Source: Carbonactinospora thermoautotrophica | Lineage (GTDB): Bacteria; Actinomycetota; Actinomycetes; Streptomycetales; Carbonactinosporaceae | Assembly: GCF_001543895.1 (NCBI RefSeq) | Contig: NZ_JYIJ01000009.1 | Coordinates: 1 to 64,000, forward strand | DNA: 64,000 nt | Direction of reading: 5' to 3' | Shown: one piece after another, positions 31,089 to 53,734 of the stretch | Position numbering within the stretch: the stretch's first letter is position 1 | Layout: each line of letters opens with the position of its first letter | Position numbers and translations under genes: made by a program | The notes under the pieces: model-generated | Told to the model about the DNA's origin: nothing | The model's input: only the letters and a program-made list of their open reading frames with translations | Databases searched by the model: none

Positions 31089-31562
31089 GTGAGCCCGGCT
31101 GTGGATGGCGGACCGGCGGAGCGGCGGCGCCGGGGCGGCCGGCCGCTGGCGGTGGAGGGGAAGCGGCGAACGCGCGGCATCACAGTCCGCCTGACGGATG
31201 AGGAGTACGCCGCGTGGGAGCGGGCGGCGACCTCGGCCGGCTACCGGCAGACCGCAGCGTGGGTGCGCGATGTGGTCGCCGCCGCGTTAGAGGGCCGCGC
31301 TCTGGTACGCGGGGTGGGGTTGCCGCGCGAGGTCCTGCTGTTTGTGGCAGAGTTGCGGCACCTGGGCAACGAGATCATCCGCGAGGGGAACAACCTCAAC
31401 CAGGTGGCGCGGTTCATGAACGCCACCGATGGTGAGGTGCCTAAGTACGCGGCTCGATTGCTGCCGCTGGTGCGGCGTAACCAGGAGATGGTCTTGGATC
31501 TGCTGGAGCGGATCCGGGCCGCAGCAGGAAGCATGCCGGACAGCGCCGGGCCGGACCGATGA
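31089..31562 (+). CDS. mobC: MobC-family relaxosome protein
   Basis: A 157-residue protein with an N-terminal ribbon-helix-helix-like start (GITVRLTDEEYAAWERAATS) and the C-terminal MobC signature LRHLGNEIIREGNNLNQVAR. MobC proteins bind oriT and help the relaxase open it. The exact start is uncertain: GTG 31089 (or 31086) is the best fit, with poor ribosome-site support. It overlaps the relaxase ATG by 4 bases, so the two are translated together. Confidence 0.9.
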   Translation: MSPAVDGGPAERRRRGGRPLAVEGKRRTRGITVRLTDEEYAAWERAATSAGYRQTAAWVRDVVAAALEGRALVRGVGLPREVLLFVAELRHLGNEIIREGNNLNQVARFMNATDGEVPKYAARLLPLVRRNQEMVLDLLERIRAAAGSMPDSAGPDR

Positions 31563-34243: not shown

Positions 34244-34472
34244 AAGCCCTCCGCAGCAGGGAGCGAGCAAGATGCCCTGCACAGCAGGCGGAGCCTGCAG
34301 GCACTCCGCCCGCCATCGCGGTTGAGGGCGGTTCACGCACAGCGCATGCCTCCCCCGGACTCAGACATGCATCGTGGCCCTGCCATCGGAAGGGCCGCAT
34401 CTAACGCTTCCGGTTTGACTCCCAGCTGTCCTGCTCCCGCTGGCATGATCGGCGTTCGTGCAGGGGGAACAT

Positions 34473-36851
34473 ATGGCCGCGGCCCGCCGGCGGCGGTTGC
34501 GGGGCTGCCTGGTCGCCGCTTTGGTCTTCACGTCGGCGCTTCTCGTCACGGCGCTGGGGTTCGCGACGAATCTCGCCACCGAGCTGGTCAAGGACCAGTG
34601 GTGGGCCGGGAATCGCCCCATGATGCTCGGGGTGACGCTTGTTCTGGCGTTCCTCGTCGCGGTCCTGGCGGTCGCGCAGCACCGGCTGGCGGAAGGCGGT
34701 GCGCAGGAGCCGCCAGCGTCTCCGGCGCTGCCGGAGCCTGACGCGGAGCCGGCGGGCCGGCCGGTGGAGGAGTGGGACCCGTTCGACCTGGGCGTGCACC
34801 GGGCGATCGAGGTGGCCGGAAGCACCGGCGAGCTGCCGGAGTACATCCCCCGCCCCCACGATGAGGAGTTGCGGGACCTGCTCGACCGGGCCGAGCCGCC
34901 CGCCGAGATGATCGTCCTGGTCGGGGGTTCGTCCACCGGCAAGACCCGCACGGCGTTCGAGGCGGTCCGCGACCGGCTCGCAGGGTGGCGGCTGGTCTTC
35001 CCCCGCAGCGCCGCCGAACTGGTTGAGCTGGCCGCCTCCGGGCGGATCGCCGAGCGCACCGTGGTCTGGCTCAACGAGACGCAGGACTACCTGGACGGCG
35101 CCGAGGGCGAACGGGCCGCCACCGCGCTCGCCGGGCTGCTGGACCAGGGCAGACGGTTGGTGGTGATCGGCACGCTGTGGCCGGAGTACTGGAACCGCTT
35201 CACCCACCAGCCCCAGGAAGGCGAGCCGGACCCGCACCGGGCCACCCGCACGCTGCTACGCGCCGCGTGCCGCATCGACGTCCCCGAGGACTTCACCGGC
35301 GCCGACCGGCAGGTGCGTGCGCGCGCCGAGCGGGACCCCCGGCTGGCCGAAGCGGTCAAGCTAGCCGGTCCCTCCCAGCGGATCATCCAGCAGCTGGCCG
35401 CCGGCCCCGACCTGATCAACCGGTACCGCGACGCCGACTGCTACGCCCGCGCCGTGCTCACCGCCGCGATCGACGCCCGCCGCCTGGGCCACCTGTCCCC
35501 CCTGGCCCCGGCCTTCCTGCGCGAGGCCGCCCGCGGCTACCTGACCGGCACCGAACTAGCCGAAGCCGGACCGGACTGGTTCACCCAAGCCCTGGCCTAC
35601 GCCACCGTCAAGGTCCGCGGAGCCCAGGCCCCGTTGGCCCCCACCGGCACCCGACCCGGGCGGACAGACGGCTTCCTCCTCGCCGACTACCTCGACCAGC
35701 ACGGCCGGACCGCCCGCCGGGCCGCCCGTATCCCAGACACACTGTGGAACGCGGCTGCCCACCACGTCCGCAACCCGGATGACCTCGCTCGGCTCGGGCA
35801 AGCCGCCTGGTACCGAGCACGCTACCGGCTTGCCGTGCCACTGCTCACCCAGGCGGCTGAAGCAGGCAACGGGGATGCCGCCTTCCGTCTTGCCGGCCTG
35901 TTGGCCGAGGCTGGCCGCATCGACGAGGCCATCGAGCGGTTCACCCGGCTTGCCGAGGCGGGCAACCCGCACGCCGCCTCCCGTCTTGCTGACTTGTTGG
36001 CCGGGGTGGGCCGTACTGAGGAGGCCATCGAGAGGCTTACCCCGCTTGCCGAAGCAGGCAGTGGGGATGCCGCCTACTTTCTCGCTGACTTGTTGGCCGG
36101 GGTGGGCCGTACTGAGGAGGCCATCGAGAGACTTACCCCGCGTGTCGAGGCAGGTGACCCGATCGCCGCCTCCTGTCTTGCTGACCTGTTGGCCGAGGCT
36201 GGCCGCATCGACGAGGCCATCGAGCGGTTCACCCGGCTTGCCGAGGCGGGCAACCTGCACGCCGCCTCCTGTCTTGCTGACTTGTTGGCCGGGGTGGGCC
36301 GTATTGAGGAGGCCATTGAATGGTTCGCCCGAGTAGCCGAGGCGGGCAACCTGATCGCTGCCTTCCGTCTTGCCGGCCTGTTGGCCGAGGCTGGCCCCAT
36401 CGACGAGGCCATCGAGCGGTTCACCCGGCTTGCCGAGGCGGGCAACCTGCACGCCGCCTCCTGTCTTGCTGACTTGTTGGCCGGGGTGGGCCGTATTGAG
36501 GAGGCCATTGAATGGTTCGCCCGAGTAGCCGAGGCGGGCAACCTGATCGCCGCCTCCTGTCTTGCTGACTTGTTGGCCGGGGTGGGCCGTATTGAGGAGG
36601 CCATTGAATGGTTCACCCGGGCAGCTGAAGCAGGCGACCCGCGTGCCGCCCGCAGCCTCGCCGACTTGTTGGCCGGGGTGGGCCGTATTGAGGAGGCCAT
36701 TGAATGGTTCACCCGGGCAGCTGAAGCAGGCAGCCCGCTCGCTGCCTACCGTCTCGCTGACCTGCTGACCAAGGCAGGCCGCACCGAAGAGGCGAACCGT
36801 CTACGCATGTTCGGGCTCAACGCCGACGGATCGATCTCTGATCCCTGGTAG
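34473..36851 (+). CDS. Membrane NTPase with ten Sel1/TPR-like repeats
   Basis: A 792-residue protein. Two membrane helices (GCLVAALVFTSALLVTALGF, ~10-33; MLGVTLVLAFLVAVLAVAQ, ~50-69) are followed by an NTPase domain: P-loop GGSSTGKTRTAFEAV (~151), TVVWLNETQDYLDG, VVIGTLWPEYW. From about residue 461 to 780 there are ten 32-residue repeats of the form AEAGN..AA.RLADLLAG.GR.EEAIE. This is a STAND/NLR-like layout: a repeat sensor behind a nucleotide switch. Many such proteins act in defence or stress; that is inference. ATG 34473 is preferred over GTG 34458 because AGGGGGAA precedes it. Confidence 0.75.
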   Translation: MAAARRRRLRGCLVAALVFTSALLVTALGFATNLATELVKDQWWAGNRPMMLGVTLVLAFLVAVLAVAQHRLAEGGAQEPPASPALPEPDAEPAGRPVEEWDPFDLGVHRAIEVAGSTGELPEYIPRPHDEELRDLLDRAEPPAEMIVLVGGSSTGKTRTAFEAVRDRLAGWRLVFPRSAAELVELAASGRIAERTVVWLNETQDYLDGAEGERAATALAGLLDQGRRLVVIGTLWPEYWNRFTHQPQEGEPDPHRATRTLLRAACRIDVPEDFTGADRQVRARAERDPRLAEAVKLAGPSQRIIQQLAAGPDLINRYRDADCYARAVLTAAIDARRLGHLSPLAPAFLREAARGYLTGTELAEAGPDWFTQALAYATVKVRGAQAPLAPTGTRPGRTDGFLLADYLDQHGRTARRAARIPDTLWNAAAHHVRNPDDLARLGQAAWYRARYRLAVPLLTQAAEAGNGDAAFRLAGLLAEAGRIDEAIERFTRLAEAGNPHAASRLADLLAGVGRTEEAIERLTPLAEAGSGDAAYFLADLLAGVGRTEEAIERLTPRVEAGDPIAASCLADLLAEAGRIDEAIERFTRLAEAGNLHAASCLADLLAGVGRIEEAIEWFARVAEAGNLIAAFRLAGLLAEAGPIDEAIERFTRLAEAGNLHAASCLADLLAGVGRIEEAIEWFARVAEAGNLIAASCLADLLAGVGRIEEAIEWFTRAAEAGDPRAARSLADLLAGVGRIEEAIEWFTRAAEAGSPLAAYRLADLLTKAGRTEEANRLRMFGLNADGSISDPW
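35856..36815 (+). repeat. Ten 96-bp tandem repeats within the NTPase gene
   Basis: Ten consecutive 96-bp units encode the Sel1-like repeats. Several units are nearly identical in DNA (for example the block carrying GCTGACTTGTTGGCCGGGG recurs in most units, and a two-unit block is repeated almost exactly around 36200-36550). This points to recent repeat expansion or exchange. Confidence 0.9.
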
Positions 36852-36993
36852 GACCGACTGCGTCTACTCCGGACCAGCGGCGGAACACCATCCACTACGC
36901 GGAGCAATCCAGCTCAAGCCGCGATGGAACAGGGGCAGTCTGCGCGGGATGACCCCCGGCGCCGGGGGTCAGGCGGAGCCGGTAGACGGCCAT

Positions 36994-38742
36994 GGAAATC
37001 CGGTTCTGGCCCATATTTCGTGATGAAGTTGGCCCTTGCTGTCAGGTGGCGTGGAGGATGCGTTTGCGGAGCAGGTCGAACTTGGCGCGGCCGTACATCT
37101 GCCTTTTGATCATTTTGATGCGGTTGATGTTGCCTTCCACGGCGCCCGAGCTGTGCGGGAGGGTGAGTCCGTTGCGGACGGCGGTGTAGTCGCGCCTGAG
37201 TCCTCGCACGAAGCGGTGCAGGTGGGGCAGGTCGTCGGCGTCGACCTTGGCCATCCAGGAATCCAGGCGCTCGCCGTGCCGGCCGGTGAGGATCTCGGCG
37301 AACGCCGTGACGTGGGCGGCGGCGGTGTCCAGGTGCGGACAGACGGCGAGGATCTGCTTGAGCTTGGCCTGTTCGTCGGCGTCGAGGTCATCGGGGTGGC
37401 GCAGCATCCAGGAGGTGATGCGGCGGACCTTCGGCACGGCTGGCTGGGCGGGTGGTGCGGCGCCCAGCGCCCGGAACGGCGCGAGGTAGGCGGCGACGGT
37501 GCCCAGGCTGCCCCGGTAGCCCTGTTCGGTGATCTCCCGATAGAGGGTGCTGGCGCCTGTGCAGCCGGCGTTCCAGCGTTCGTGCAGGTAGGGCTTGTAG
37601 GCATCGAGGATGCTGGGCCGTCCGGCGCGGGGTTTGGCCAGCAACTCCTCGACGCTGTCGGCGCGGTAGAAGCGGCGCACGGTCTCCTTGGCCAGCCCGA
37701 GTTCCCGCATGATCGGCTTGATGCCCTTGCCCTGGGCCTTCAGCGCCTGGACCGCGTCGTAGCGGGCCTTGGTGCGCGCCACCAGGCGGGAGTTCTCCCG
37801 GCGCTCGGCGTGAGCGGCCTCGGCCGCCTCGGCGAGTTCGGCGGCGCTGGTCGCCTGAGCCGGGACCTCGAGTGGAATGTCGGCCTCACGGCGCAAACAG
37901 CCGTGGTGGGCGGCGACGGTCTTCTCCACGTACTCGGCGAGGTTGTGCCACACATGCCAGCGGTCCGCGACCTGGATCGCCTCTGGCGCACCGGCTTGGG
38001 CGCCTTCGGCGTAGGCGCCGGCGCGGTCCCGACACACCACCGCGGTGCCGGGATGCCCGGCCAGCCAGGCAGCGAACGTCTCGGCCTGCCGGTCGTCGAG
38101 GACGTCGATCGGCCGGTGGGTGTCCAGGTCGACCAGGACCGTGCCGTAGCGATGGCCACGCCGTAGCGCGAAGTCGTCCACGCCGAGGACCGCCACCGGG
38201 CCGACCTCGGGATCGGGCAGGGCCCGGACCAGACGGAGCAGCACGTTGCGGCCCACCGGCATCCCTAACCTGGCGGCCAGGCGGGACCCGGCTCGGCCGG
38301 CCAGCGCCACCCCGATCGCCTCCAGCATCGCCCGCAGCAGCGCCGTGCGCCGACCGTAGGGCACGGTCAGGCCCGCGACCTGCTCGGCGAACGTCCTGAC
38401 CCGACAGCCTTCGTCGTCACAGAAGAACCGGCGCACCCGCAGCCGAATCACCACACGCCGACCGGCCAGTGCCGCATCGGCGAGCCTGCGCTCATACCGG
38501 CTGTGCACCCGCACCGACTCACAACCGCAGCCGGGACACGCCGCGGCCGCTCCCCGCGGATACGCCCAGATCCACACCGCGCCACGGATCTCCTCGACCC
38601 GCTCGATCACCACACCAGCCAGGTGCGGCAGCAGAACGCTCAGATCGTGATCAACACACGCCCGAACATGATCACAGAGCCCTCGCCAGCACCCCGCAGG
38701 GGGCCATGCCGATCACGAAATATGGGCCAGAACCGGAAATCC
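36994..38742 (-). mobile_element. ISL3-family insertion sequence
   Basis: About 1.75 kb. Left end reads GGAAATCCGGTTCTGGCCC and runs to 37024. Right end (complement of 38712-38742) reads GGATTTCCGGTTCTGGCCC; the two match over 31 bp with two mismatches. No clear 8-bp target duplication was found. A GC-rich palindrome CCCCCGGCGCCGGGGG lies just left of it (~36952-36968). The transposase is complete. Confidence 0.9.
37042..38613 (-). CDS. ISL3-family transposase
   Basis: A 523-residue transposase. The N-terminal zinc-binding region ([31 protein letters not shown]) is followed by the DDE core: [38 protein letters not shown], and near the C-terminus [23 protein letters not shown]. It starts at GTG 38613; the reading frame continues upstream as LLPHLAGV without a standard start, so the true N-terminus may be a few residues longer. 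Intact otherwise. Confidence 0.92.
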
Positions 38743-38804
38743 CTGGAATCGCCGCGCACCGTGCGGAAAATCGGAACAGGAACGGGGTTGATGTGGGGGA
38801 CTCG

Positions 38805-39269
38805 ATGACCGCCACCGAGTTGCCAACTGGCCACCACGAGCGAGCCGACCACCGGCCCTACGTCGACGCCGTGTGTGCCGCGCTAGAAGCCCAAGAGATC
38901 GGCGTCGGCACCCGCTGGACCAGCGCGACGAGGCTGCGCGAGGCCACCGTGCGCCTGGCCCCGGATCCGGAGGAGACCGCGTTCGGCGAGGCCGAGGAGG
39001 TGCTGCTGCGGTGGACCGAGGAAGCCGGCTGGTTCCTGGTCGCGCCGACCGTCCACGAAGGGCAGTGTCTTGAGTTCCCCTGGTACATGGGGTTCGGGGT
39101 GCTGCCCGACCCCGATGAGGTCGCGGTGTGGGTCGACACCCTGCTGATACGGCCGGATCTGACCCCCAGCCGTGAGGACGGCCCGTACCGCCGCCACACC
39201 GACTACGACCCCGAGTTCGAGCAGGCCTTGCGTTCCTACGCCCAAAACCCCGCCGCCGGCGACGACTGA
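38805..39269 (+). CDS. DUF6292-like hypothetical protein
   Basis: A 154-residue protein with GGGGGA before ATG 38805. It starts MTATELPTGHHERADHRPYV and has the pattern YVDAVCAALEAQEIGVGTRW ... VLLRWTEEAGWFLVA that I associate with DUF6292 proteins in actinomycete plasmids. No enzymatic motif. It stops 32 bp before the giant gene, so they are probably one operon. Confidence 0.6.
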   Translation: MTATELPTGHHERADHRPYVDAVCAALEAQEIGVGTRWTSATRLREATVRLAPDPEETAFGEAEEVLLRWTEEAGWFLVAPTVHEGQCLEFPWYMGFGVLPDPDEVAVWVDTLLIRPDLTPSREDGPYRRHTDYDPEFEQALRSYAQNPAAGDD

Positions 39270-39301
39270 TCGCGATCAGCACAGCTAGCACGGGGGGATG
39301 G

Positions 39302-42300
39302 ATGAGCACGCACTCGGAGGAGACCACAGCAGACAAGGCAACCGGCCCGATCGCCCGCGCCCGCGCCGCCGTGGCGGCGCTGGAGGTGCTGGACCGGATT
39401 CGGTCGGACGGCGCCTCACCCACGGCGGAAGACCTCGCCGCGCTGCGCGCGTGGCCGGGGTGGGGGCCGCTGGCGCCCGCCCTGGAGTACCGGCCCACCG
39501 GGACGTGGGCGGAGATCCAGGAGCGCCTCCAGTGGCTTTTGGACCCTTCCGCGTACCGTGAGGCGGAGGCGGCGACCTTCAACGCCTTCTACACCCCTCC
39601 GGAGATCGCGGACGCCTGCTGGCGGATCCTGCGTGACCTGGGGTTCACCGGCGGCACGCTGCTGGAACCCGGGTGCGGTGCCGGGGTCTTCATGGCCCGC
39701 ACCCCGGCTGAGGTGCCCGCCCGCTGGATCGGGGTGGAACGCGACCCCACCACCGCGCGGATCGCCTCCCTGCTGCACCCGGACGCGCAGATCATCAACC
39801 AGCCGCTGCAGGAGACCCAGCTGCCCTCGCGCAGCGTGGACGCGGTGCTGGGCAACGTGCCGTTCGGGGACGTCGCGGTCTACGACCCCACCGCACCGGA
39901 GGAGATCACCACCAACCTGCACAACTACTTCATCTGGCGGTCGGTGCAGGCGCTGCGCCCGGGCGGGGTAGCGGTGCTGATCACCTCCCGCTACACCCTG
40001 GACGCCAAAAGCGAGGAGGCGCAGGCGGCGCGGAAGGCCATCGCGGCCGACGCCGACCTGCTGGGGGCGATCCGGCTGCCGAACGCGGCGCTGGCACCCG
40101 GCGGCACCACCGCCTTGGTCGACATCCTGGTGCTGCGGCGGCGTCGCCCGGGGGAGGAACCCGGCGACGATGCCTGGCTGCGGACCCGGCCGGTGTTCAG
40201 CGGGCAGGAGCACGTCAACGCCTACCTGCTCGACCATCCCGAGCAGGTTCTGGGCGAGCACGCGCTGGATCGGGCACCCCGGTATGGGCGCACACTGCGG
40301 GTCGACACCCGCCCGGACGACCCGCCGCTGGCCGAGGCGCTGGCGCAGGCCGGCCAGCGGATCGTCGAGCGGGCCGCCGCGCAGGGGCGGACCTGGCAGG
40401 TCGACGCCCCGGTCACGCAGATCACCGCGGAGAACTCGCCGTTCCCGACCCGCGCCGATGGCCGCAAGGAGGGCTCGTTCCACCTGGTCGACGGCGTCCC
40501 GCACGAGGTGATCGACGGGAAGCTGGTGCCCGTCGACCCCAAGACCCCCGGGGTCAAGACCGAGCTGCCCCGGCTGATCCGGCTGCGGGACGCCGCGCTG
40601 CGGCTGCTGGAGGCCGAGAGCGACTTCTCGACCCCGGATGAGGAGCTGGAGCCGCTGCGGGCAAAGGTGCGCGCCCTCTACGAGGAGTACGTGAAGGCGC
40701 ACGGGCCGCTCAACCGGTACACGCTCGTGGAGAGCCAGCCCGACCCGGAAACCGGCCTGCCGACCATCAGCCGCCGCCGCCCGACCATGGGCGGGTTCCG
40801 CCGCGACCCGGACTTCGTCACGGTCCTCGCGCTGGAGGACTTCGACGACGAGACCCGCACCGCCAAGCCGGCCGCGATCCTCACCCGCCGGGTCAACCGA
40901 CCGCGCCAGCGCGCCACCCACGCCGACACCCCGGCCGAGGCGGTGGCGCTGTGCCGCGACGAGCTGGGCTACATCGACCCGCCGACCATCGCCCGCCTGC
41001 TGGGCATCCCCGTGGACCAGGTGCCCGAGAAGCTGCAGGGCCTGGCGTTCGAGGACCCGGTCACGCGCCGGTGGGTTCCGGCGGATGAGTACCTGTCCGG
41101 CGAGGTACGCGAAAAGCTGGAGCAGGCCCGGGAGGCCGCCGAGCGTGACCCGCAGCGGTGGGCTCAGAACGTCGCCGCGCTGGAGAAGGTCCAGCCGAAA
41201 GACCTGGAGCCGGAGCAGATCAGGGCCAACCTCGGCGCGGTGTGGATCCCTGCGGTCGACATCGAGGACTTCACCGCCGAGGTGTTCGGCTACCGTGCCC
41301 GGATCTGGCGGGAACCGCGCACCTCCACCTGGAGTGTGGAGGCCAGCCACGCCGCGGAGACCAGCCCGGCGGCGACCGTGGAGTGGGGCACCGAACGCCT
41401 CAACGCCTACCGGTTGCTGGAACGCCAGCTCAACGGCAAGGACGCCACCGTCTACGACGTCATCCTCACCCCGGACGGCGGGGAGCGGCGGGTCCGCAAC
41501 GAGCGCGAGACCCTGCTGGCCGAGGAGAAGGTCAAGGCCATCTGCGCCCGGTTCGCCTCCTGGGTGTGGGAGGACCCCGACCGGGCCGACCGGCTGGCCG
41601 CACGCTACAACCGCTGGTTCAACTCCTCAGTCCTGCGCCGGTTCGACGGGTCGTACCTGACCTTCCACGGCATCGACCCGGAGTTCACGCCGTACCCGCA
41701 CCAGAAGGACATGGTCGCGCGGATCATCGCGACCCCGGCCGCGCTGTGCCCGTTCCCGGTCGGCACGGGCAAGACCGCGATCATGTTCATGGCGGCGATG
41801 AAGCTCAAGGAGCTCGGCTTGGTCCGCAAGCCGATGATCGTCACCACCCCGAGCACCTTGGAGCAGATCGCCCGTGACGGCAAGCGGCTGTTCCCCAACG
41901 CCCGCATTCTGATGGCCAGCCGGGACGAGCTGGGCGACGCCCGGTCCCGCAAACTCTTCGCCGCCAGATGCGCCACCGAGGAGTGGGACGCGGTGGTGAT
42001 CTCCCACACCGCGTTCATGGCCCTGCCGGTTCACCCCACCACCGAGGCGGAGTATCTGGACCGCCTGGCCGCCGAGTACCGGCAGGCCCTGGCCACGGCG
42101 AAGCAGGACGGGGGTCAGCGGCGCATCAAGCAGATCGCCAAGATGGTCAAGAACCTGGAGACCCGGGCGAAGAAGCTGCTGGACCATGCCACCGACGACG
42201 GGGTGTTCTTCGAGCAGCTCGGTGTGGACTACCTGCTGATCGACGAGATCCACTACTTCAAGAACCTGGCCGTGCCGGTCCACACCGACGGGTTCTCGAT

Positions 42301-45300
42301 CAAACCGTCCAAGCGGGCCACCGACCTGGACCTGAAACTCTCCTGGCTTCGCAGGAGCGGACGCAACAAGCACGTCATGGCCGGGTTCTCCGGCACCATG
42401 ATGACGAACACGCTCCTGGAGCTGTACGTCATGCAGCACTACGCCCAGCCGGAGCGACTGGAGAAGCTGGGCATCGCCAACGCGGACGCCTGGGCGGCGA
42501 CGTATGTGCGGTTCGAGACCAACCCTGAACTGACCCCGGACGGGCGGTTCCACCTCAAGCGGCGACCGGTGGATTTCGTCAACATGCCGGAGCTGATGAA
42601 GATCTTCGGCGAGGTCGCCGAGCTGCGCCCCAAGTCGGATTTCCCGGTCAAACGCCCAAAGGCGCACCGCACCACGCTGCTCGTCGACCCCACCCCCGCC
42701 CAGCGCCGCTACCTCGCCAAGCTCAGCAAGCGGGTCGACGCGATCCAGGCTGGCGGCGTCGATCCCAGCGTCGACAACATGCTCAAGATCTGCAACGACG
42801 GCCGGAACGTCGCGGTCAGCGAGCTGCTGGTCGGTCTTGAGCCGGACGAACCGCCGGACAGATCGGGGAAGATCGGCGCTGTCATCAAGAACGTCGCCGA
42901 GTACTACCACGCCACCAAGGACCTGCCCATCCCCGGCGACACCTCGGGGGTCACCGGCCGGTTGCAGATCGTGTTTCTCAGCCGCGGCACTCCCAACAAG
43001 GACGGCCCGCAGCTGTACGGCGTGATCCGCGACGGCCTGATCAAAGCCGGGGTGCCCGCGCAGAAGATCCGGTTCATTCACGACGCCAACACCGACGCCA
43101 AGAAGCTCGCCCTGTACGACGACTGCAACTCCGGCCGGGTCGCGGTCCTGCTGGGCAGCATCGGAAAGCTCGGTGTGGGCGTCAACGTGCAACAACGCGC
43201 CGCCCGGTCGATCATCGTGGATCCCCCGCTACGGCCGGACGAGATCGAGCAGGCCGAGGGCCGCGTGTGGCGGCCGGGCAACCTCAACCCGGAAGTCGAA
43301 CTGCTCCGGGTTGGCACCAAAGGCACCTTCGACGCCTTCTCCTACCAGCTGCTCGAACGCAAGCAGCGCGGCATCGACCAGCTCTTCTCTGGTCAGCTCA
43401 CCGCTCGCAGCATCGAGGACATCGGTGAGGTCCAGCTGAGCTTCGCCCAGATGAAGGCCGAGCTCACCGGCAACCCGCTCCTGGTGAAGCTGCACGAGGC
43501 CAACCGGGAAGTCAACGCGCTGCTCGCCGAGGCCGCCGCCCACGCCCGCAGCATCAAGCGCCTGCGCAAGGAGGTCGCCGACCACGAGGCCCAGATCGCC
43601 GACAAGACCGCCACGGCCACCGCCTTGGATGCCATCGCGGCGGCCGCCGCCGAGGCGCCAGACGAGGCATGGCGCGACTTCAGCGGGCGGGAACTCCCCA
43701 CCGACGACGTGCCCGGCAAGCTGGCCCAACTCGCCGAGGAAGCGCTCCGCGACGGCACCGGGTACCCCACGACCAGCCTCTCCTGGCGCGGCCTGTACGT
43801 GTGGTTCACCGCCAAGAAGCAGTGGCGGGAGGTTGACCTGTCCGCGTGGCTCACCATCCGCGGGCAGCGGGTCCAGGTACCGATCAACCAGTCCTGGCTC
43901 AGCAAGGGCCAGCACTGGCGCATCCTGGACGCCCTCACCAGGACCATCAACGACGCGCCCCAGACCGCGGCCGAGCTTCGGCAGGAAGCCGACGCCCTGC
44001 GCGAGCGCATCGAGCAAGCCAACAAGCTGATCGCCAAGCCGTTCCCCAAGTCGGCCGAGCTTGAGGCCGCCCGCCAGCGCCGCGACGAGTTGGACGCGCA
44101 GCTCCGCCAGGCCGCCGCCGAGGAAGAAGCCGAACGCCACCTCGCCGCCGTTGGAGCCGCGTTCACCCCGTCCACCGGCAACGAGTTGGTTGACGCCGCG
44201 ATCCACGACGCGGCAGCCATGGCCGGGTTCGACCCGGGCACGGCGAGGACGGCAGGGGCCGAGGAGGTGCCCCAGGAGCTCCGCGAGATGGTCGAGGCCG
44301 CGCCTCGCAGCGGCCCGGGCGGGGATGGCGACCCCGCGGAGCAGGGCGGCGAATCGGTCCCGCCGGCAGGCGAACCGGCGGTCGACCCGTACCCGGACCG
44401 GGCGGCGTCACGAGCCGGCGAAGACGCGGTGCGGCAGGCCTTCGAGAGCTGGCGCGAACTCGTACCCGATCCGGCGACACCGGCCGAGCGTGCCCTGGCG
44501 GACACCGGCACCACGGTGCTCGAGGAGACCGCCCGCCGCCGGCGGGAACGGCTCGCGCGCGGCCGGGACGAGGACGTCGACCTGGATGTGAGCCTGTACC
44601 GGGCGCTGAGCACCGCCGCCCACGCGCTGGCCGAGCAGGCAGACCAGTCGCAGGAGCGGATCGCCGCCGTCACCCGCATCGCCGAGGTCGCCGACACCCA
44701 CATTCGGCGCATCGAGGCGACCCTCGACGACGTCGACAACTACGTGCAGTGGGCACGCAGCCCAGAGCCGCTCCTCGACCTCGAACCCGTCGGCCGCGCC
44801 GAGGCGCCCGCCACGACGCAGGATCCCGCCGAGCTTGCAGCGGACGCGGGCGGCGAGTCTGATCCTCGCGGGCGGCAGGATGATGAGGCGAGGGTGGACA
44901 CGCGGCCCACCACTGACCCGGGACCGGCGGGAGAGCCCGCACACGCCGAGCCTCCGCCGTCCGCGCCCGCGGAGCCGCCTACCACAGCGGATCCCGCGCG
45001 TACCCAGGCCCCCGAACAGCGACTAACCCCGCCTGGCGAGGGCCCCCATGCTGCGGAGCCTGAGGCCGAGTCTGGCGCGCTCGCCAGGTTCGACCCGGTC
45101 GAGCAGGCGATGATCCGCAACGCGACCGAGGATTACGCCAGCCGCTACTACGGCGGCCCGATGAGGTTCGGCCGGGATGATGCCGCCCGCTACGTGGCCG
45201 AGGGCCACCTGCGGGACCTGGTGGACAAACACGGGCTCACCCCCGTGTGGAATGCCGTCGCCTCCCTCATCGCGGAACGACCCGAGGTACTCGACCCGAT

Positions 45301-48300
45301 CACCGAAGCCGACCGTGAGCAGCGGATCAGAGCCCGCCAGGACCGCGCGGGGCGGCTAGCCGACGACGCCTATACGGCACTCCTGCGGCACGACTACGAC
45401 CGCGCGTTGGAGCTGATCGGCCAGGCAGAGCTTGTCGACCCCACCTACCGGCCTAGCGGGGCGACGTGGGAGCAGATTCGTGAGGCGATCCGCGAACAGC
45501 GTGACGAGGCCGCCTCAGCGGGGGGCGCGGGTGAGGTTGCCGAGCACCAGACGCCCACGACCCCTGTCCCGTCGTCGCAGACGGCGGCGCCGACGCGGAT
45601 CGTCATCGAGCACCACGACGAGGGCACTCTGGTACGCGGCACGCGCGAGGACGACACGCAGGTACGCCGCGCCCTGAGCGACCACGGGTTCCGGTGGTCC
45701 CGCAGACTCGGCGCCTGGTACCTGCCTCGGCCGTGGAAGTTCGACACCCGGACCAGGCGAGTCGCCCGGCTGCGACGCGACCTGGAACGGCTCGGTCGCC
45801 CGTTCCTCGTGCAGACCGAACCCTCCGCGGCCGTACCCGACGCCCAGCCGGACAGCCCGGCACTCGAACCCCAGCACGTCCCCGCTGACCGCTTCGAGCA
45901 GCAGCCCGCCTCGCCGCTGGTCGAGCCGGACGAACCGCAGCGCGCGGCCCCGCTCGACACGACCCCGGTCGGTGCCGGCGCCGTACTTCCCGCCCCTGAC
46001 CCGGAGCAGGCCGGGGAGGAGCCGTTCGGGACCGGCGAACAACCCGCCATAGACCGCACGGACGAGGTCGCCGGGCGGACGGCCACCGACCCCGCAGCCG
46101 CCGACGAGCAGGCTTCTGCCCCCTCCACCCGCCCGCAGACCCCGCAGCACGCCGAGCCCGCGGCGGTCGAAACGGGCGTCGAGTCCGCGGCGTCCGACGT
46201 CATCCAGGCCAGCCTGTTCGACCTGGGCCAAGACGAAACCGAGCCGGCCGCGACCCCACCCAGACCGGCCGATACCGGGCCTGTCGCGGCCGTCACCGAC
46301 GAGGCCGCAGCCGAGAACACCACCGCGCCCGCCGCCAGCGACCCGGGCAACGCGGTGTCCACTCGCGAGCGGGGCGAGCAAGCCGCCGGCGCCGAGCACA
46401 TGCCGGTCGAAGACGCTGCGCGGCACGAGCACGACCAAGACGACGCGCTCGTCGGCGAGACCGCACCGGCGCTGACCGAAGCCGCACTCGAGCCGGAACG
46501 CGGTGCCGCCGACGCCGAGCCTGCCGTCACGGCGGCGGCCTCCCCGGCCGAGAAGACGGCCGATCCGGCCGAGCCCGTAGCAACTGAGCCGTCCCCGCAG
46601 CTGACCGTGGAGCCGGCCGAGGGAGGCACCACCCAGGAGGAGGTATCGGCCGGGGTGGAGTCCAGCCCTGCCCCCGAAGTCGCGTCCTCGATGCCAGCCG
46701 ACGCCGGCGGCAGGGCCTGGAAGCCCTTGTCGGAGGTCGAACCCGGTGACGTCCTCGAGCACCCGGGCTACGGGTTCGGGCCGTTCGTAGTCCGCGAGGT
46801 CCATGACCGCGATACCCCTGTCGTGACCCTGGTCGGTGATGTCCGGTACGGCGACCCGTCGTGGTCCCTGACACCCCAGCGGGTCACCTGGCAGGTGGCG
46901 AGGAACGGCGGAGACCCGAACATGCGGCTCGCGACTCCACCGCAGCCCGTGGCCGAAGGCAGGCCGGCGCAACCGGTGGAGGCCGAAGCCTCGGTCGAGC
47001 GTCCGCAGGAGGTCCCCATGGAGGCATCCTCCCTCAAGACCGACCACCGCGAGACCGTCCTCGACGGTGACGAGCCCGACACGCAGGAGCCGGCAAGCCG
47101 CGAGGATCCGCTCGACCGCGCTTTCGCCGGTGTGCTCGCCCTGCTGCAGGAGAAGGCAGCACCGCAGGCGGACTCGCAGGGCGAGGCGCAGTCCGCCGCG
47201 ACCTTCGAGGACGTCATCACCGCGGTGCGGCAACTGCGCAGCGAGCTGGCCGGTGTCGTCCCTGACCAGGAGGAGGCGATCCCGGCAGAGGCTGCCACCG
47301 TGGCCGCCGACGCGGGGATGTCGCGCGTCCTGGACGAGGTGGACGACGCCTACGACCAGGCGGCATCCCGGATCGGGCGGTACGCGGACACCCCAGAGTG
47401 GCAGCGGATCCAGAGCATCCGGGACGCGGCCCGTCACCTGTGGGCCACGATCCGCGACGCGGCGGGCAGCTACTACCAGGAGATCGCGGCAGACGTCCGG
47501 GCCCGCGGCTTCCTCACCACCATGGCCGTCCGGTCCAGTCGCGCGATCTCCCACCTGGCATGGCGGCTCGCGGACCGGATGAGCCGTGACGGGCAGCGCG
47601 ACACCCTGGCGTGGCGGGCTGCGCGGCGGCTGCACCGTGCCGCCGACCGCTACGCCACTCGGCTGCTGTTCCGCTCAGACCTGGACCGGTTCGAGGACGT
47701 TCTCTCCACGCTGCGCAGCCTGCGGGACGACCTGGCGGAGACCACGCTGCAGGACGAGCAGCCCACCCGGCGCGGCCCCCGAGACGTGGCGGGCGCGATC
47801 GCGGACAGCCTGCGCCGCCTGCAGGATGCCTACGCCGCAGCGCGCACCCGGGTCGCCGCCTACCTCGGTCCGGAGTGGAACCGCATCACAGCCCTGTGGG
47901 ACGCGGCCGGCGGCCTGTGGGGCGCAGCCGGGCGCCCCTTCATCCGGACCGTCCTGGCCCGCTCCTGCGATCTCATCGAAGAGCTGTCACACCGCTTGGC
48001 GGCCAGTCCAGCTCTGGACGGGCAGCGCGACACCCTGACGCGGCGGGCTCTGCTCAGGCTGAGCCGGGCGGCGGAGGAGCTCGCCGCCCGGCTGCGCGGA
48101 TACCTCCAGCCGGACGAACGGCTCGACCACGAGGCGGCGCAGACCGCGCCCGGTATCGAGCAGCCACTCGACCAGGTGTCCTACGTCTACGCCCACCAGG
48201 GGGTGACGGCACGGGCCGAGCACGGCAGCACCGTGGTGGAGGTCGAGGGTCAGCGCCACCCGGTCGCCGCTCCCATCGACTCCCTGGACGCGTTCTCCAC

Positions 48301-48721
48301 GCAGCTGACGGCCGTGGTCCGCGACGCGCGGCCGATCCAGCAGGTACCGCGCGCCTACTGGCTGCACTACCGGGAAGGATCGGTCACCGTCGCCTACCAG
48401 GGTGGGAAGACCGCGTACCTGCGCGACGGCGAAAGCCCGCAGTGGCAGCGGATCACGGTCCCGGCCGTGGGCTGGGACGCGGCCGCGTTCGCCACAGCCG
48501 CCCGGACAGCCATCACGCGCCCACGAGGCGAGCCCGAGGCCACCCCGGCGTCGACCCCGAGCCCGGGTCGGATCGTCGCGGCGTCCGCCCGCTCCACCCT
48601 GGGGCACCCGCCGGCAGCCGCGCGGCGACGCCCGCCAGCCGGGCCGCCCGCGGCCGCGACGCCGCCCGCGTCGGCTCGGGTACGCCCCCCGGAGGAGAAA
48701 GCGGGCCGCCGGGTGAGGTGA
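39302..48721 (+). CDS. Giant methyltransferase-helicase fusion (DarB-like)
   Basis: A 3139-residue protein, intact over 9.4 kb. Residues ~93-300 form an N6-adenine methyltransferase-like domain: FNAFYTPPEIADACW, LEPGCGAGVF (AdoMet motif, ~121), and GNVPFG (~183) in place of the usual NPPY/F. Residues ~798-1350 are an SF2 helicase: PYPHQKDMV, VGTGKTA (~820), LLIDEIHYF (~979) and EGRVWRPGN (~1320). A coiled coil follows (~1390-1610), then a mid domain (FRWSRRLGAWYLPRPW, ~2130), an acidic Pro/Ala linker, PGDVLEHPGYGFG (~2481) and helical C-terminal domains. The same pairing occurs in phage P1 DarB and related element proteins that protect DNA from restriction. ATG 39302 follows GGGGGATGG. Confidence 0.85.
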   Translation: MSTHSEETTADKATGPIARARAAVAALEVLDRIRSDGASPTAEDLAALRAWPGWGPLAPALEYRPTGTWAEIQERLQWLLDPSAYREAEAATFNAFYTPPEIADACWRILRDLGFTGGTLLEPGCGAGVFMARTPAEVPARWIGVERDPTTARIASLLHPDAQIINQPLQETQLPSRSVDAVLGNVPFGDVAVYDPTAPEEITTNLHNYFIWRSVQALRPGGVAVLITSRYTLDAKSEEAQAARKAIAADADLLGAIRLPNAALAPGGTTALVDILVLRRRRPGEEPGDDAWLRTRPVFSGQEHVNAYLLDHPEQVLGEHALDRAPRYGRTLRVDTRPDDPPLAEALAQAGQRIVERAAAQGRTWQVDAPVTQITAENSPFPTRADGRKEGSFHLVDGVPHEVIDGKLVPVDPKTPGVKTELPRLIRLRDAALRLLEAESDFSTPDEELEPLRAKVRALYEEYVKAHGPLNRYTLVESQPDPETGLPTISRRRPTMGGFRRDPDFVTVLALEDFDDETRTAKPAAILTRRVNRPRQRATHADTPAEAVALCRDELGYIDPPTIARLLGIPVDQVPEKLQGLAFEDPVTRRWVPADEYLSGEVREKLEQAREAAERDPQRWAQNVAALEKVQPKDLEPEQIRANLGAVWIPAVDIEDFTAEVFGYRARIWREPRTSTWSVEASHAAETSPAATVEWGTERLNAYRLLERQLNGKDATVYDVILTPDGGERRVRNERETLLAEEKVKAICARFASWVWEDPDRADRLAARYNRWFNSSVLRRFDGSYLTFHGIDPEFTPYPHQKDMVARIIATPAALCPFPVGTGKTAIMFMAAMKLKELGLVRKPMIVTTPSTLEQIARDGKRLFPNARILMASRDELGDARSRKLFAARCATEEWDAVVISHTAFMALPVHPTTEAEYLDRLAAEYRQALATAKQDGGQRRIKQIAKMVKNLETRAKKLLDHATDDGVFFEQLGVDYLLIDEIHYFKNLAVPVHTDGFSIKPSKRATDLDLKLSWLRRSGRNKHVMAGFSGTMMTNTLLELYVMQHYAQPERLEKLGIANADAWAATYVRFETNPELTPDGRFHLKRRPVDFVNMPELMKIFGEVAELRPKSDFPVKRPKAHRTTLLVDPTPAQRRYLAKLSKRVDAIQAGGVDPSVDNMLKICNDGRNVAVSELLVGLEPDEPPDRSGKIGAVIKNVAEYYHATKDLPIPGDTSGVTGRLQIVFLSRGTPNKDGPQLYGVIRDGLIKAGVPAQKIRFIHDANTDAKKLALYDDCNSGRVAVLLGSIGKLGVGVNVQQRAARSIIVDPPLRPDEIEQAEGRVWRPGNLNPEVELLRVGTKGTFDAFSYQLLERKQRGIDQLFSGQLTARSIEDIGEVQLSFAQMKAELTGNPLLVKLHEANREVNALLAEAAAHARSIKRLRKEVADHEAQIADKTATATALDAIAAAAAEAPDEAWRDFSGRELPTDDVPGKLAQLAEEALRDGTGYPTTSLSWRGLYVWFTAKKQWREVDLSAWLTIRGQRVQVPINQSWLSKGQHWRILDALTRTINDAPQTAAELRQEADALRERIEQANKLIAKPFPKSAELEAARQRRDELDAQLRQAAAEEEAERHLAAVGAAFTPSTGNELVDAAIHDAAAMAGFDPGTARTAGAEEVPQELREMVEAAPRSGPGGDGDPAEQGGESVPPAGEPAVDPYPDRAASRAGEDAVRQAFESWRELVPDPATPAERALADTGTTVLEETARRRRERLARGRDEDVDLDVSLYRALSTAAHALAEQADQSQERIAAVTRIAEVADTHIRRIEATLDDVDNYVQWARSPEPLLDLEPVGRAEAPATTQDPAELAADAGGESDPRGRQDDEARVDTRPTTDPGPAGEPAHAEPPPSAPAEPPTTADPARTQAPEQRLTPPGEGPHAAEPEAESGALARFDPVEQAMIRNATEDYASRYYGGPMRFGRDDAARYVAEGHLRDLVDKHGLTPVWNAVASLIAERPEVLDPITEADREQRIRARQDRAGRLADDAYTALLRHDYDRALELIGQAELVDPTYRPSGATWEQIREAIREQRDEAASAGGAGEVAEHQTPTTPVPSSQTAAPTRIVIEHHDEGTLVRGTREDDTQVRRALSDHGFRWSRRLGAWYLPRPWKFDTRTRRVARLRRDLERLGRPFLVQTEPSAAVPDAQPDSPALEPQHVPADRFEQQPASPLVEPDEPQRAAPLDTTPVGAGAVLPAPDPEQAGEEPFGTGEQPAIDRTDEVAGRTATDPAAADEQASAPSTRPQTPQHAEPAAVETGVESAASDVIQASLFDLGQDETEPAATPPRPADTGPVAAVTDEAAAENTTAPAASDPGNAVSTRERGEQAAGAEHMPVEDAARHEHDQDDALVGETAPALTEAALEPERGAADAEPAVTAAASPAEKTADPAEPVATEPSPQLTVEPAEGGTTQEEVSAGVESSPAPEVASSMPADAGGRAWKPLSEVEPGDVLEHPGYGFGPFVVREVHDRDTPVVTLVGDVRYGDPSWSLTPQRVTWQVARNGGDPNMRLATPPQPVAEGRPAQPVEAEASVERPQEVPMEASSLKTDHRETVLDGDEPDTQEPASREDPLDRAFAGVLALLQEKAAPQADSQGEAQSAATFEDVITAVRQLRSELAGVVPDQEEAIPAEAATVAADAGMSRVLDEVDDAYDQAASRIGRYADTPEWQRIQSIRDAARHLWATIRDAAGSYYQEIAADVRARGFLTTMAVRSSRAISHLAWRLADRMSRDGQRDTLAWRAARRLHRAADRYATRLLFRSDLDRFEDVLSTLRSLRDDLAETTLQDEQPTRRGPRDVAGAIADSLRRLQDAYAAARTRVAAYLGPEWNRITALWDAAGGLWGAAGRPFIRTVLARSCDLIEELSHRLAASPALDGQRDTLTRRALLRLSRAAEELAARLRGYLQPDERLDHEAAQTAPGIEQPLDQVSYVYAHQGVTARAEHGSTVVEVEGQRHPVAAPIDSLDAFSTQLTAVVRDARPIQQVPRAYWLHYREGSVTVAYQGGKTAYLRDGESPQWQRITVPAVGWDAAAFATAARTAITRPRGEPEATPASTPSPGRIVAASARSTLGHPPAAARRRPPAGPPAAATPPASARVRPPEEKAGRRVR

Positions 48722-50212: not shown

Positions 50213-50350
50213 GTGTCGAAGAAGTCGACGCCGGGTGACGGCTCGCACGGCAAGGGCAGCAAGGGCACTCCGGACGGGGCTCCGCGCCGGAGCGTGGCGG
50301 GCTTCGTACGTGGCCTGGTCGCTGGCCTGGCCGCGTTACGGCGCGGGTGA
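50213..50350 (+). CDS. Small basic peptide, possible RiPP precursor or partner
   Basis: A 45-residue peptide starting at GTG 50213, with GAGGGGG seven bases upstream. Gly/Ser/Lys-rich N-terminus (SKKSTPGDGSHGKGSKGTPD), then a hydrophobic-basic tail (GFVRGLVAGLAALRRG). It ends 3 bases before the asparagine-synthetase-like gene, so the two are almost certainly co-translated. Such a pair, with a GNAT nearby, resembles clusters where an asparagine-synthetase-like enzyme cyclises a peptide (lasso type). No lasso core or leader motif is seen, so the role is open. Confidence 0.5.
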   Translation: MSKKSTPGDGSHGKGSKGTPDGAPRRSVAGFVRGLVAGLAALRRG

Positions 50351-50353
50351 GGG

Positions 50354-51702
50354 GTGCTGGAGCCGGTGTTTCGCGGGTCGGACGGCCGGGAGGCCGCCGA
50401 CCCGCTGGCCTTGGTGGACTCGGACTCGCCGCCGGTGGTGGATGTGGCGGCGTTGGCGCTGCTGTTCGCCCCGCCTGCGCTGTACGGGGAGTTCGTGCCA
50501 CGGCCACCGTGGCGGGGCGTGGAGCGGATCCGCACGGTGCCGGTGCCCGCACCTGAGCCGGTGCCGTTGGGCGAGGCGTTCACCTCAGCGGTCGCCACGC
50601 TGGCCGCCGACGTGGAGGTGGTCGGGGTGAAGGTCTCCGGCGGGCTGGACAGCCTGGCCGTCCTGGTCCACGCCGTGCGCCGGGCCGAGGGGCGCACGGT
50701 CGTGGCGTTCACCGCCGACCTGGTCGACGACGCCGGTGTCTCGGCGGCCACCGTCGTGCGCCGCCTGGTCGCCGACCTGGAACTCGGATGCGAGCTGGTG
50801 GTCCTCGACCCGGACCGGCACCGAGCCGTACCGCGCTGGTCGCCGTGCGGGCCTCGGCTGGACGCCCTGCCCGCGGTGAATGCCGCGGTGTCCGAGTTCG
50901 CGGCCGCGCGCGGAGTGGGGGTGCTGCTGTCCGGGGACGGGGCGGATGAGCTGCTGGGCGTGCCCCGGTTCGCCACGGCCGCGATCACCCGCCGCTGGGG
51001 GTGCGGGCCGGGTTGCGGTACGCCGCCGACGTCGGACATACCGGGCCGGGCCTGGCCGGCGAGGTCGCCGCGCTGGTCGCCGCGCTGCTGCCGCCGCGCA
51101 CCCGGGCGCGGGCGTACTGGGCGGCGAACTGGCCGGAGTGGTGCGACCCGGTCGCCCCGCGCGTGGTGGCCGAGCCGTACCGGGAAGCCACGACGCGGTG
51201 GGCGCGGGCGTGGGTGGCCGAGCAGGTCGCCGCGCACGCCGCGGCGGGCCGCTCCTGGGCGCAGGCGGACGCGCACGACGCGCTGTGGCCGCACGATGTG
51301 ATCCCGCCCGCCGGCGAGGTGCCAGAGGCCTCGCCGTTCCTGCATCCGGCGTTCCTGCCTGCCGCGCTCGCGCTGGCGCTCGCCGACCGGTACGACCCGG
51401 CCCTGCCCACCCCGTACCAGCGGTGCAAGGCGCAGATCGTGAAGCTGTTCCCCGAGCCGATGCGGCGAGTGCTCCCGCGCCGCAAGCAGTACTACTCGAC
51501 CACCCTGGTGGCCGCGGCCGCACAGCCGATCGCCGCACCGCGAGCGGTAGCCGCCGGGCTGCTCGACCCAGACGCGCTCGCGGTCGAGACGGATGTCGCG
51601 GTGCGGCTGACCGCAGCGGCCGTGGAGGACTGGCTCGCCGGTGCCGAAGCCGCCGGCGCACAGCTGCCGCGACCGGCCCGCGACCATAGCGGCTTGCTAT
51701 AG
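50354..51702 (+). CDS. Asparagine-synthetase-like amidotransferase, frameshifted
   Basis: About 449 residues when one base is restored near 51000 (in GGGGG). The synthetase domain is clear: VSGGLDSLAVLVH (PPi-binding SGGxDS) and VLLSGDGADELLG (second ATP motif) in the first frame. The C-terminal helices RTRARAYWAANWPEWCDP and PYQRCKAQIVKLFPEPMRRV are in the second. The N-terminal glutaminase domain of asparagine synthetases is short or lost (no N-terminal Cys), so it does not use glutamine as AsnB does. This is the situation in lasso-peptide cyclases, which activate a side-chain carboxylate. Start GTG 50354. Confidence 0.7.
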
Positions 51703-51722
51703 GAGGAGGCTCTATCCGCTGG

Positions 51723-52619
51723 TCAGCGGCGGCGAGTGTAGGAGTGCAGCCGGTCGACCTCGGTGAAGCCCATCGCGTCGTACAAGGCGTTGGCGGCGGT
51801 GCGGTCCCGCTCCCCGCCCGGGGGCTCGTCGTCGTCGACGTACAGGATCACCTCCCGCGCCCCGTGGCCGGCCAGGTGCGCGAGCGCCTGGCGCAGCAGG
51901 GCCCGGCCGATGCCCCGACCCCGGTGGGGCGGAGCGACCTCGATCCACCACAGCACGCCGATCCCGTCCACCGGCTCACCCACGGTGGCCTCACCCGCCA
52001 GCGCCCCCTGTGGGTCGCGGACCTCCAGCCGCCACCCGACCGGGTCCTCGCACGGCGTGACCGTCGCGACCGGGTCCTGGCCCTCGACCTGTGCCGAGTC
52101 GATGCCGGCGAGGTCGCGGCGCATGTACCGCCACAGGTCCCGCCCGGCGAACCCGGCTTCGACCAGGGCGCGGTGGGTGGCGGGCCGGTGCCGCACCGGC
52201 AGGCCTTCCAACCCGAGGGTGAGCGCGGAGGCGAACTCGAACGCGTACACCACCGGGCGGCGGCCCAGCTCGGCGAGCGCATGGCCGACCAGCGCGGCCA
52301 CCATGGCCGGGTCCTCGCGCCCGTGCAACCACAGGATCAGCCCCGCCTTGTCCTCCGGGCGCGCCGCGAACGAGACCACCCCGGCCACCCGGCCGGCCTG
52401 GTCGACCAGCACCTCGGTGCGGGGCGGGTCGAGCTCGGCCCACCAGCCGGCGTCGACCGTGGACCGGCCCGCCACGGCCTCGCCCAGCATGGCTGGGGTG
52501 CAGGCCGGCTGCCCGGGTAACCGGTCGGCGTTGATGAGCTCCAGCACCTGGTTCTCGTCGCCTGCCTGGTACGCCCGGGCGGTCAGCCCGGTTGGCAGCC
52601 GTCTGGTCCGCAGCGTCAT
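51723..52619 (-). CDS. Tandem GNAT acetyltransferase
   Basis: A 298-residue protein with two GNAT-like halves. The C-terminal half is the catalytic one: IGVLWWIEVAPPHRGRGIGRALLRQAL holds the acetyl-CoA R-G-x-G-x-G/A loop. ATG 52619 is preceded by GCGAGGAGGCG. It converges on the asparagine-synthetase-like gene, with 20 bases between stops. It may acylate the product of that locus or be independent. Substrate unknown. Confidence 0.85.
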   Translation of the reverse strand: MTLRTRRLPTGLTARAYQAGDENQVLELINADRLPGQPACTPAMLGEAVAGRSTVDAGWWAELDPPRTEVLVDQAGRVAGVVSFAARPEDKAGLILWLHGREDPAMVAALVGHALAELGRRPVVYAFEFASALTLGLEGLPVRHRPATHRALVEAGFAGRDLWRYMRRDLAGIDSAQVEGQDPVATVTPCEDPVGWRLEVRDPQGALAGEATVGEPVDGIGVLWWIEVAPPHRGRGIGRALLRQALAHLAGHGAREVILYVDDDEPPGGERDRTAANALYDAMGFTEVDRLHSYTRRR

Positions 52620-52744: not shown

Positions 52745-53734
52745 TCACCGGTCGACGGGGAGCAGGTCCAGGGCGCGTTCGCGGTCCTCGGCGCTGGGGC
52801 GGGTGTAGCCGCGGGTGGTCTCCAGGCGGGCGTGGCCGAGCAGCTCGGCGACGATGACCAGGTCGGTGCCGCCGCGCACCAGGGTGGTGGCGAAGGTGTG
52901 GCGCAGGTCGTGGGCGGTGGCCGCGTCCAGCCCGGCGGTGTCGGCGATGCGGGCGAACACGTCGCGGGCGCCGCGCACCGACAGGCGGCCGCCGCGGCGG
53001 TTGAGGAACAGCGCGGGGTTCTCCTGCGCGCCGGGCCAGGTCCTGCGTTCCTCGAGCCAGGCCGCAAGGGCGGCCCGTAGTTCGGGGTGGAGCGGGACCC
53101 AGCGGGGCTTGCCGCCCTTGCCCAGCAGGCGGATCTCGCCCTTGCGGGCCGAGAGCCGCACGTCGTCGAGGTCCAGGCGGACGGTCTCGGCGATGCGCGG
53201 CCCGGCGTAGAACGGCAGCAGGGCGAGCGCCCGGTCCCGCGCGGAGGGTTCCTGGGCGACGGCGCGCAGCCACCGGGTTTGCGCCCGCTGCGGGAGCGAG
53301 CGGCGCGTCGAGGTGGGCAGGTCGAGCCGGTCGGCGTTGGCCGGGCCCAGGCCGCGGCGGGTGTAGAAATCGTCGAGCGCGGCGAGGGCGTTGTTCACCG
53401 TGGCGGGCTTGCGCTTGGCCACGGTGACCAGGTGGGTGCGGTAGTCGCGCACCGCCCAGTCCCGCGCCGCCGGGTCGGCGAGCGGATCACCGTCGACATC
53501 GGCGGCCGCCAGCCAGGCCAGGTACTGGCGGACCTTGGAGGCGTAGGTGCGCCGGGACTCGGTACTCAGCGGCGCCCGCTCCAGCCGCGCGAGGTAGTCG
53601 GCGAGCACCGCCGCCAGCTCGCCCGGCAGCGGCGTGCCGCGCGCCCCGCGCCGGCGCGGGGCGGCCGGTTTCGTGTTCTCGGAAGTAGATTTCGGGTCCT
53701 GCGCGACCTGGTTGTGCGCGTTCTCGGAAGTCAC
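52745..53734 (-). CDS. Tyrosine site-specific recombinase
   Basis: A 329-residue XerC/D-like integrase. The core-binding SAM-like domain covers ~40-130. The catalytic residues are all present: R in GPRIAETVRL, K in KGGKPRW, HxxR in HDLRHTF, H in LLGHARLE, and Y in TRGYTRPS. GTG 53734. The first codons repeat the 11-bp motif described at 53676-53773. It is probably the recombinase that integrates the element ending here; the att site is not identified. Confidence 0.93.
   Translation of the reverse strand: MTSENAHNQVAQDPKSTSENTKPAAPRRRGARGTPLPGELAAVLADYLARLERAPLSTESRRTYASKVRQYLAWLAAADVDGDPLADPAARDWAVRDYRTHLVTVAKRKPATVNNALAALDDFYTRRGLGPANADRLDLPTSTRRSLPQRAQTRWLRAVAQEPSARDRALALLPFYAGPRIAETVRLDLDDVRLSARKGEIRLLGKGGKPRWVPLHPELRAALAAWLEERRTWPGAQENPALFLNRRGGRLSVRGARDVFARIADTAGLDAATAHDLRHTFATTLVRGGTDLVIVAELLGHARLETTRGYTRPSAEDRERALDLLPVDR

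Follow-up and report, generated by a model that had tools for sequence, protein, structure and literature searches.

Two lasso antibiotics, triculamin and lariocidin, currently attract interest as agents against mycobacteria and resistant bacteria; the ribosomal site that lariocidin hits is a new one. Triculamin is a leaderless lasso peptide of Streptomyces with the core sequence SKKSKPGDGIRGKGVRG (PMC13192320), encoded at the N-terminus right after the start methionine and continued by a C-terminal follower, as represented in the model NF050031. Lariocidin, encoded by the lrc cluster of Paenibacillus, has the sequence SKKSKPGDGKFGRGVKRG (PMC12427821) with a Ser1-Asp8 macrolactam and targets the ribosome; the lrc cluster has a leader, B1/B2, an ABC transporter and a clostripain-type peptidase (PMC11451635). 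Self-resistance to both antibiotics is by lysine acetylation (PMC13352647). A lasso cyclase accompanied by an acetyltransferase is also the arrangement of the albusnodin-type acetylated lasso peptides (PMC9266682), whose clusters have a leader and a B protein.

The 64,000-nucleotide stretch of Carbonactinospora thermoautotrophica DNA analysed here (positions 1 to 64,000 of contig NZ_JYIJ01000009.1, hereafter the window) contains three genes that we are confident constitute a leaderless lasso cassette of the triculamin/lariocidin kind, with a precursor, a cyclase that is frameshifted in this copy, and an acetyltransferase. The core, the gene order, the family, the conservation and the frameshift in the assembly are all observed at the sequence level. 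A preliminary description had rightly suspected a locus for lasso-like peptide modification that includes an acetyltransferase, and a lariocidin/triculamin-family core does lie beside the cyclase and a GNAT; it had also stated that the peptide has no recognisable lasso core, and entertained a new peptide-modification system. The latter two statements do not hold. The system is of a known kind, and residues 2-18 match the lariocidin/triculamin core model just under its cut-off; in leaderless precursors the core is N-terminal and the remainder is follower, which is easily overlooked by eye.

The precursor is a GTG-started frame of 45 residues (50213..50350, forward strand) made up of the start methionine, the 17-residue core SKKSTPGDGSHGKGSKG (residues 2-18; 50216-50266, forward strand), and a basic follower of 27 residues, TPDGAPRRSVAGFVRGLVAGLAALRRG. 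Since the core stands directly after the start methionine there is no leader, and neither B1 nor B2 is found within the cassette; nor does it have the ABC transporter or the clostripain-type peptidase of the lrc cluster. The core is identical to that of triculamin at 12 of 17 positions, with five substitutions, and every fixed position of the pattern S-x-K-S-x-P-G-D-G, including Asp8 for the macrolactam, is found in it; as in lariocidin, which belongs to the same core family, an 8-residue Ser1-Asp8 ring is expected. Nonetheless, the Met-started peptide falls under the curated cut-offs of all three lasso precursor models, with residues 1-18 scoring 24.8 bits against NF050022, the NCBIfam lariocidin/triculamin core (cut-off 27), and the peptide scoring 22.5 bits against NF050021 (cut-off 40) and 21.4 bits against the triculamin-like equivalog NF050031 (cut-off 65), which does not recognise the window follower; the Val-started form scores slightly lower in the same models. 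By these scores the window precursor is assigned to the broader lariocidin/triculamin core family only, and not to the NF050031 equivalog.

The albusnodin arrangement suggests another reading, in which the locus, with a leader and B proteins, would be a lasso cluster of the canonical or albusnodin type, but we regard this as exceedingly improbable given the N-terminal position of the core, the absence of B1 and B2 from the cassette, and a score of the window cyclase of 18.8 bits against NF033561 (albusnodin/ikarugamycin macrolactam cyclase), far below the cut-off of 300. Moreover, the sole B2 of the genome (PF13471) lies on another contig in a separate, canonical lasso cluster (G000:C18, L079:2862-6731). 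That cluster also has a possible 40-aa precursor (2862-2984), a 619-aa cyclase, a 108-aa RRE-like B1, and a 385-aa methyltransferase, which by eye looks like a protein-isoaspartate methyltransferase and would suggest an aspartimide-type lasso peptide.

The gene that follows the precursor was initially read as a 315-residue asparagine-synthetase-like ORF (50354-51301, forward strand) with both ATP motifs and no Cys-glutaminase domain. The motifs, SGGLDS and LLSGDGADE, are indeed present in a PF00733 (Asn_synthase) domain matching residues 74-212, and the lack of a glutaminase domain is a family feature, because the intact relatives have none either; complete cyclases among them are 437-445 aa long with about 70 residues ahead of the synthetase domain. 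However, although the ORF does supply the N-terminal half, it is not the whole enzyme, and the break in the gene had been missed. The coding frame of the N-terminal half (50354..50998, forward strand) is lost after residue ~214, the last ~100 residues of the ORF being an out-of-frame translation, and the frame shifts by -1 at a G-run (50997..51001, forward strand) at a point where seven compared relatives are continuous and without the run. The C-terminal half then continues in the -1 frame (50998..51702, forward strand) and aligns with columns 216-439 of the intact relatives. Joined over the break, the two halves align with intact relatives from end to end at 51-65% identity. As assembled, what stands beside the window precursor is a homologous cyclase split by a frameshift rather than a functional ATP-dependent one.

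The start of the cyclase gene also appears altered. In the eight relatives examined, the GTG of the cyclase shares a GTGA with the stop codon of the precursor; this corresponds to 50347..50350 (forward strand) in the window, where a GGGG run behind the GTGA puts that GTG out of frame with the N-terminal half. The ancestral start is seemingly displaced by one base and can be replaced by GTG 50354, which is the likely start in this copy; as the preliminary description noted, the precursor frame stops 3 bases before it.

The peptide is small, basic and tightly coupled to the enzyme, and one could therefore suppose it to be a regulator or partner of an enzyme of asparagine metabolism, as had been proposed, or a chance frame. 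We give these readings almost no credence. The window cyclase reaches only 43.3 bits against the asparagine synthase model TIGR01536 (cut-off 267), in the synthetase domain only, and an intact relative 40.8 bits; plain asparagine metabolism, the grouping against which the enzyme was to be checked, is ruled out by these family scores, and PF00733 has four further matches in the genome. A search beside homologous enzymes in other genomes finds the small frame conserved, in 11 other loci, with its 18 N-terminal residues, which match a named antibiotic core, conserved far above the remainder. Serine or alanine follows the methionine in 12/12 precursors (window included) and PGDG is invariant. Recurrence of the core motif and the gene order in unrelated genomes makes them more than chance. 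For the cyclase fold, the S. alanosinicus relative (L044) was modelled (pLDDT 91.7), and its matches are TsnB9, carbapenam synthetase, asparagine synthetase B, and beta-lactam synthetase; neither the cyclase profile nor the peptide found anything useful when searched against PDB sequences.

Adjoining the cyclase in convergent orientation, as first described, is an intact double GNAT (51723..52619, reverse strand), modelled as a tandem GNAT acetyltransferase with a pLDDT of 87.8 and similar to 7q3a, 3tt2, and 2wpx. It shares 55-65% identity with the GNATs of other cassettes. By analogy with triculamin and lariocidin, it is likely to be the self-resistance enzyme, in a role like that of TriT/LrcE.

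We infer the chemistry, the ribosome target and the resistance role of the cassette by homology, and propose the following route for it. Methionine aminopeptidase would take off the start methionine, freeing the amine of residue 1 (Ser1) without any leader peptidase. The glutaminase-less, asparagine-synthetase-type cyclase would then adenylate Asp8 and close the ring onto Ser1 about the threaded tail, probably holding the basic C-terminal follower as a substitute for leader and RRE. Cleavage of the follower after Gly17 by a putative protease would release the likely product, a cationic lasso with a Ser1-Asp8 ring and a mass of 1595.80 Da, which probably binds the ribosome as lariocidin does; the tandem GNAT would protect the cell by acetylating a lasso lysine. 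A precedent for a lasso cyclase working without a leader is pseudomycoidin, which Zyubko et al. in 2019 reportedly found to be made without leader and leader peptidase, although its precursor naturally has a leader and its core is unrelated. The proposed tie to triculamin and lariocidin is drawn from the precursor core and the gene order.

The relatives were collected by scanning a genome collection with the cyclase alignment, which gave ten loci in Streptomyces, Kitasatospora, and Salinispora; by whole-genome searches, which added one locus each in genomes G197 (L048) and G589 (L067) together with L068 and L069 from two genomes of another family of the same order; and by a plasmid search, which added remnants on Streptomyces and Pseudonocardia plasmids. 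At least eight further actinobacterial loci have the trio of precursor, glutaminase-less cyclase of ~440 aa, and tandem GNAT. Among 392 genomes sampled from the order, eight carry a relative, the window's own included, and no member of these 392 scores over the cut-off of the triculamin precursor model. Weak core matches at L009-L012, L024, and L035 were rejected upon reading as chance matches. In all seven intact cassettes (L037, L038, L039, L042, L044, L048, and L067) the GNAT adjoins the cyclase, usually in convergent orientation; L039, like the truncated L043, has both genes on one strand. Across nine loci, the distances among cyclases correlate with those among GNATs (Mantel r 0.935). No gene beyond the trio is shared in the flanks compared, including any common follower protease or exporter, and since the flanks are unrelated, the three genes form a unit.

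Two kinds of related locus depart from this pattern. L069:2951-4390 (reverse strand) and its counterpart L068 pair a triculamin-like precursor, AKKSKPGDGTEGCGVKG, with an intact cyclase of 38% identity but have no GNAT; the JmjC_2 (PF08007) oxygenase next to both genes could serve in tailoring or protection instead. On plasmid pBCI2-1 of the ant-associated strain Pseudonocardia sp. EC080610-09 (L052:3881-6154), a triculamin-like precursor beginning MAAKSSPGDGSHGRGIRG is found with a cyclase and a GNAT that are both broken into several frames.

With its cyclase frameshifted by -1 at a G-run, the window copy probably no longer makes the peptide, yet it keeps an intact immunity gene. We lean towards a biological origin for the frameshift rather than a sequencing error. 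Errors at AT/GC runs are common in draft assemblies, and there is a substantial, if smaller, chance that this same cassette acquired its frameshift only in sequencing or assembly and that the strain does make the lasso peptide. The break falls at a homopolymer, a draft relative (L040) is likewise broken at a G-run, and the dN/dS of the window cyclase against relatives equals that of the GNAT, with no accumulated decay. Against this, seven apparently intact genes of the window hold 44 G/C runs of at least 5, and 191 runs of at least 4, all unbroken, which disfavours a general homopolymer error. In addition, a second one-base displacement is inferred just past the ancestral GTGA start, and the affected runs number 2/14 as compared to 0/191 (post hoc Fisher p 0.004). 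Alternatively, a low level of full-length cyclase could arise through programmed -1 frameshifting or slippage on the G-run, which would limit production; after a -1 slip, the GGG codon could pair again within the run. We think this quite improbable, as the relatives compared conserve neither run nor shift and read straight through, and the cyclase breaks in other loci are at different positions; frameshifting programmed as a family trait is rejected, given the continuous, run-free frame of the relatives compared.

The window cassette is one of several with a damaged cyclase. Excluding L041 (at a contig end) and L068/L069 (with no homologous GNAT), 15 loci could be assessed, and in eight of them the cyclase is broken or truncated (window, L040, L043, L045, L046, L051, L052, and L070); the frameshift in L040 sits at a G6 run. 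Four of these eight retain an intact GNAT (window, L040, L043, and L045), the other four have a broken GNAT or none (L046, L051, L052, and L070), and a broken GNAT next to an intact cyclase was found in none of the 15. This suggests that loci with a broken cyclase and an intact GNAT are immune non-producers, although a count of four against none falls short of significance; self-toxicity would predict this order, with production lost ahead of immunity. Pairwise dN/dS gives similar constraint on cyclase and GNAT, in the window too (against L044, dN 0.28 and dS 0.74 for the cyclase, dN 0.27 and dS 0.79 for the GNAT), with no sign of relaxed selection on broken cyclases or of stronger constraint on the GNAT. 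With no such decay, the breaks are either recent or, in drafts, sequencing errors. A further idea, which we hold to be speculative and unlikely, is that short G-runs in the cyclase gene act as slippage sites at which frequent one-base changes stop lasso production and might later restore it, with immunity maintained by the separately transcribed GNAT, giving a recurrent and possibly reversible immune non-producer state.

The surroundings of the cassette include a relaxase (PF03432) and a 3139-aa methylase/helicase-like protein with weak family matches only, both within 31559-48721, and, immediately adjoining the cassette, a XerC-like integrase (52745-53734). Together these suggest a mobile element on the 100,465-base contig; a terminal overlap that would make the contig circular was looked for and not found. 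Elsewhere on this contig two adjacent, same-strand 293-aa frames (L050:13439-14320 and 14497-15378) with identical codon-position composition are probably a tandem duplication.

With a precursor that scores under the model cut-offs and a cyclase in two pieces, a cassette of this sort can escape automatic annotation. What the window contributes is a divergent core, from a family in the order of Streptomyces that is represented here by a single genome. Of these observations, only repeated loss of the cyclase with intact immunity might come as a surprise to a specialist. In the loci compared, production seems often to be lost and immunity retained, and this, if confirmed, would be a usable example of self-resistance genes separating from production.
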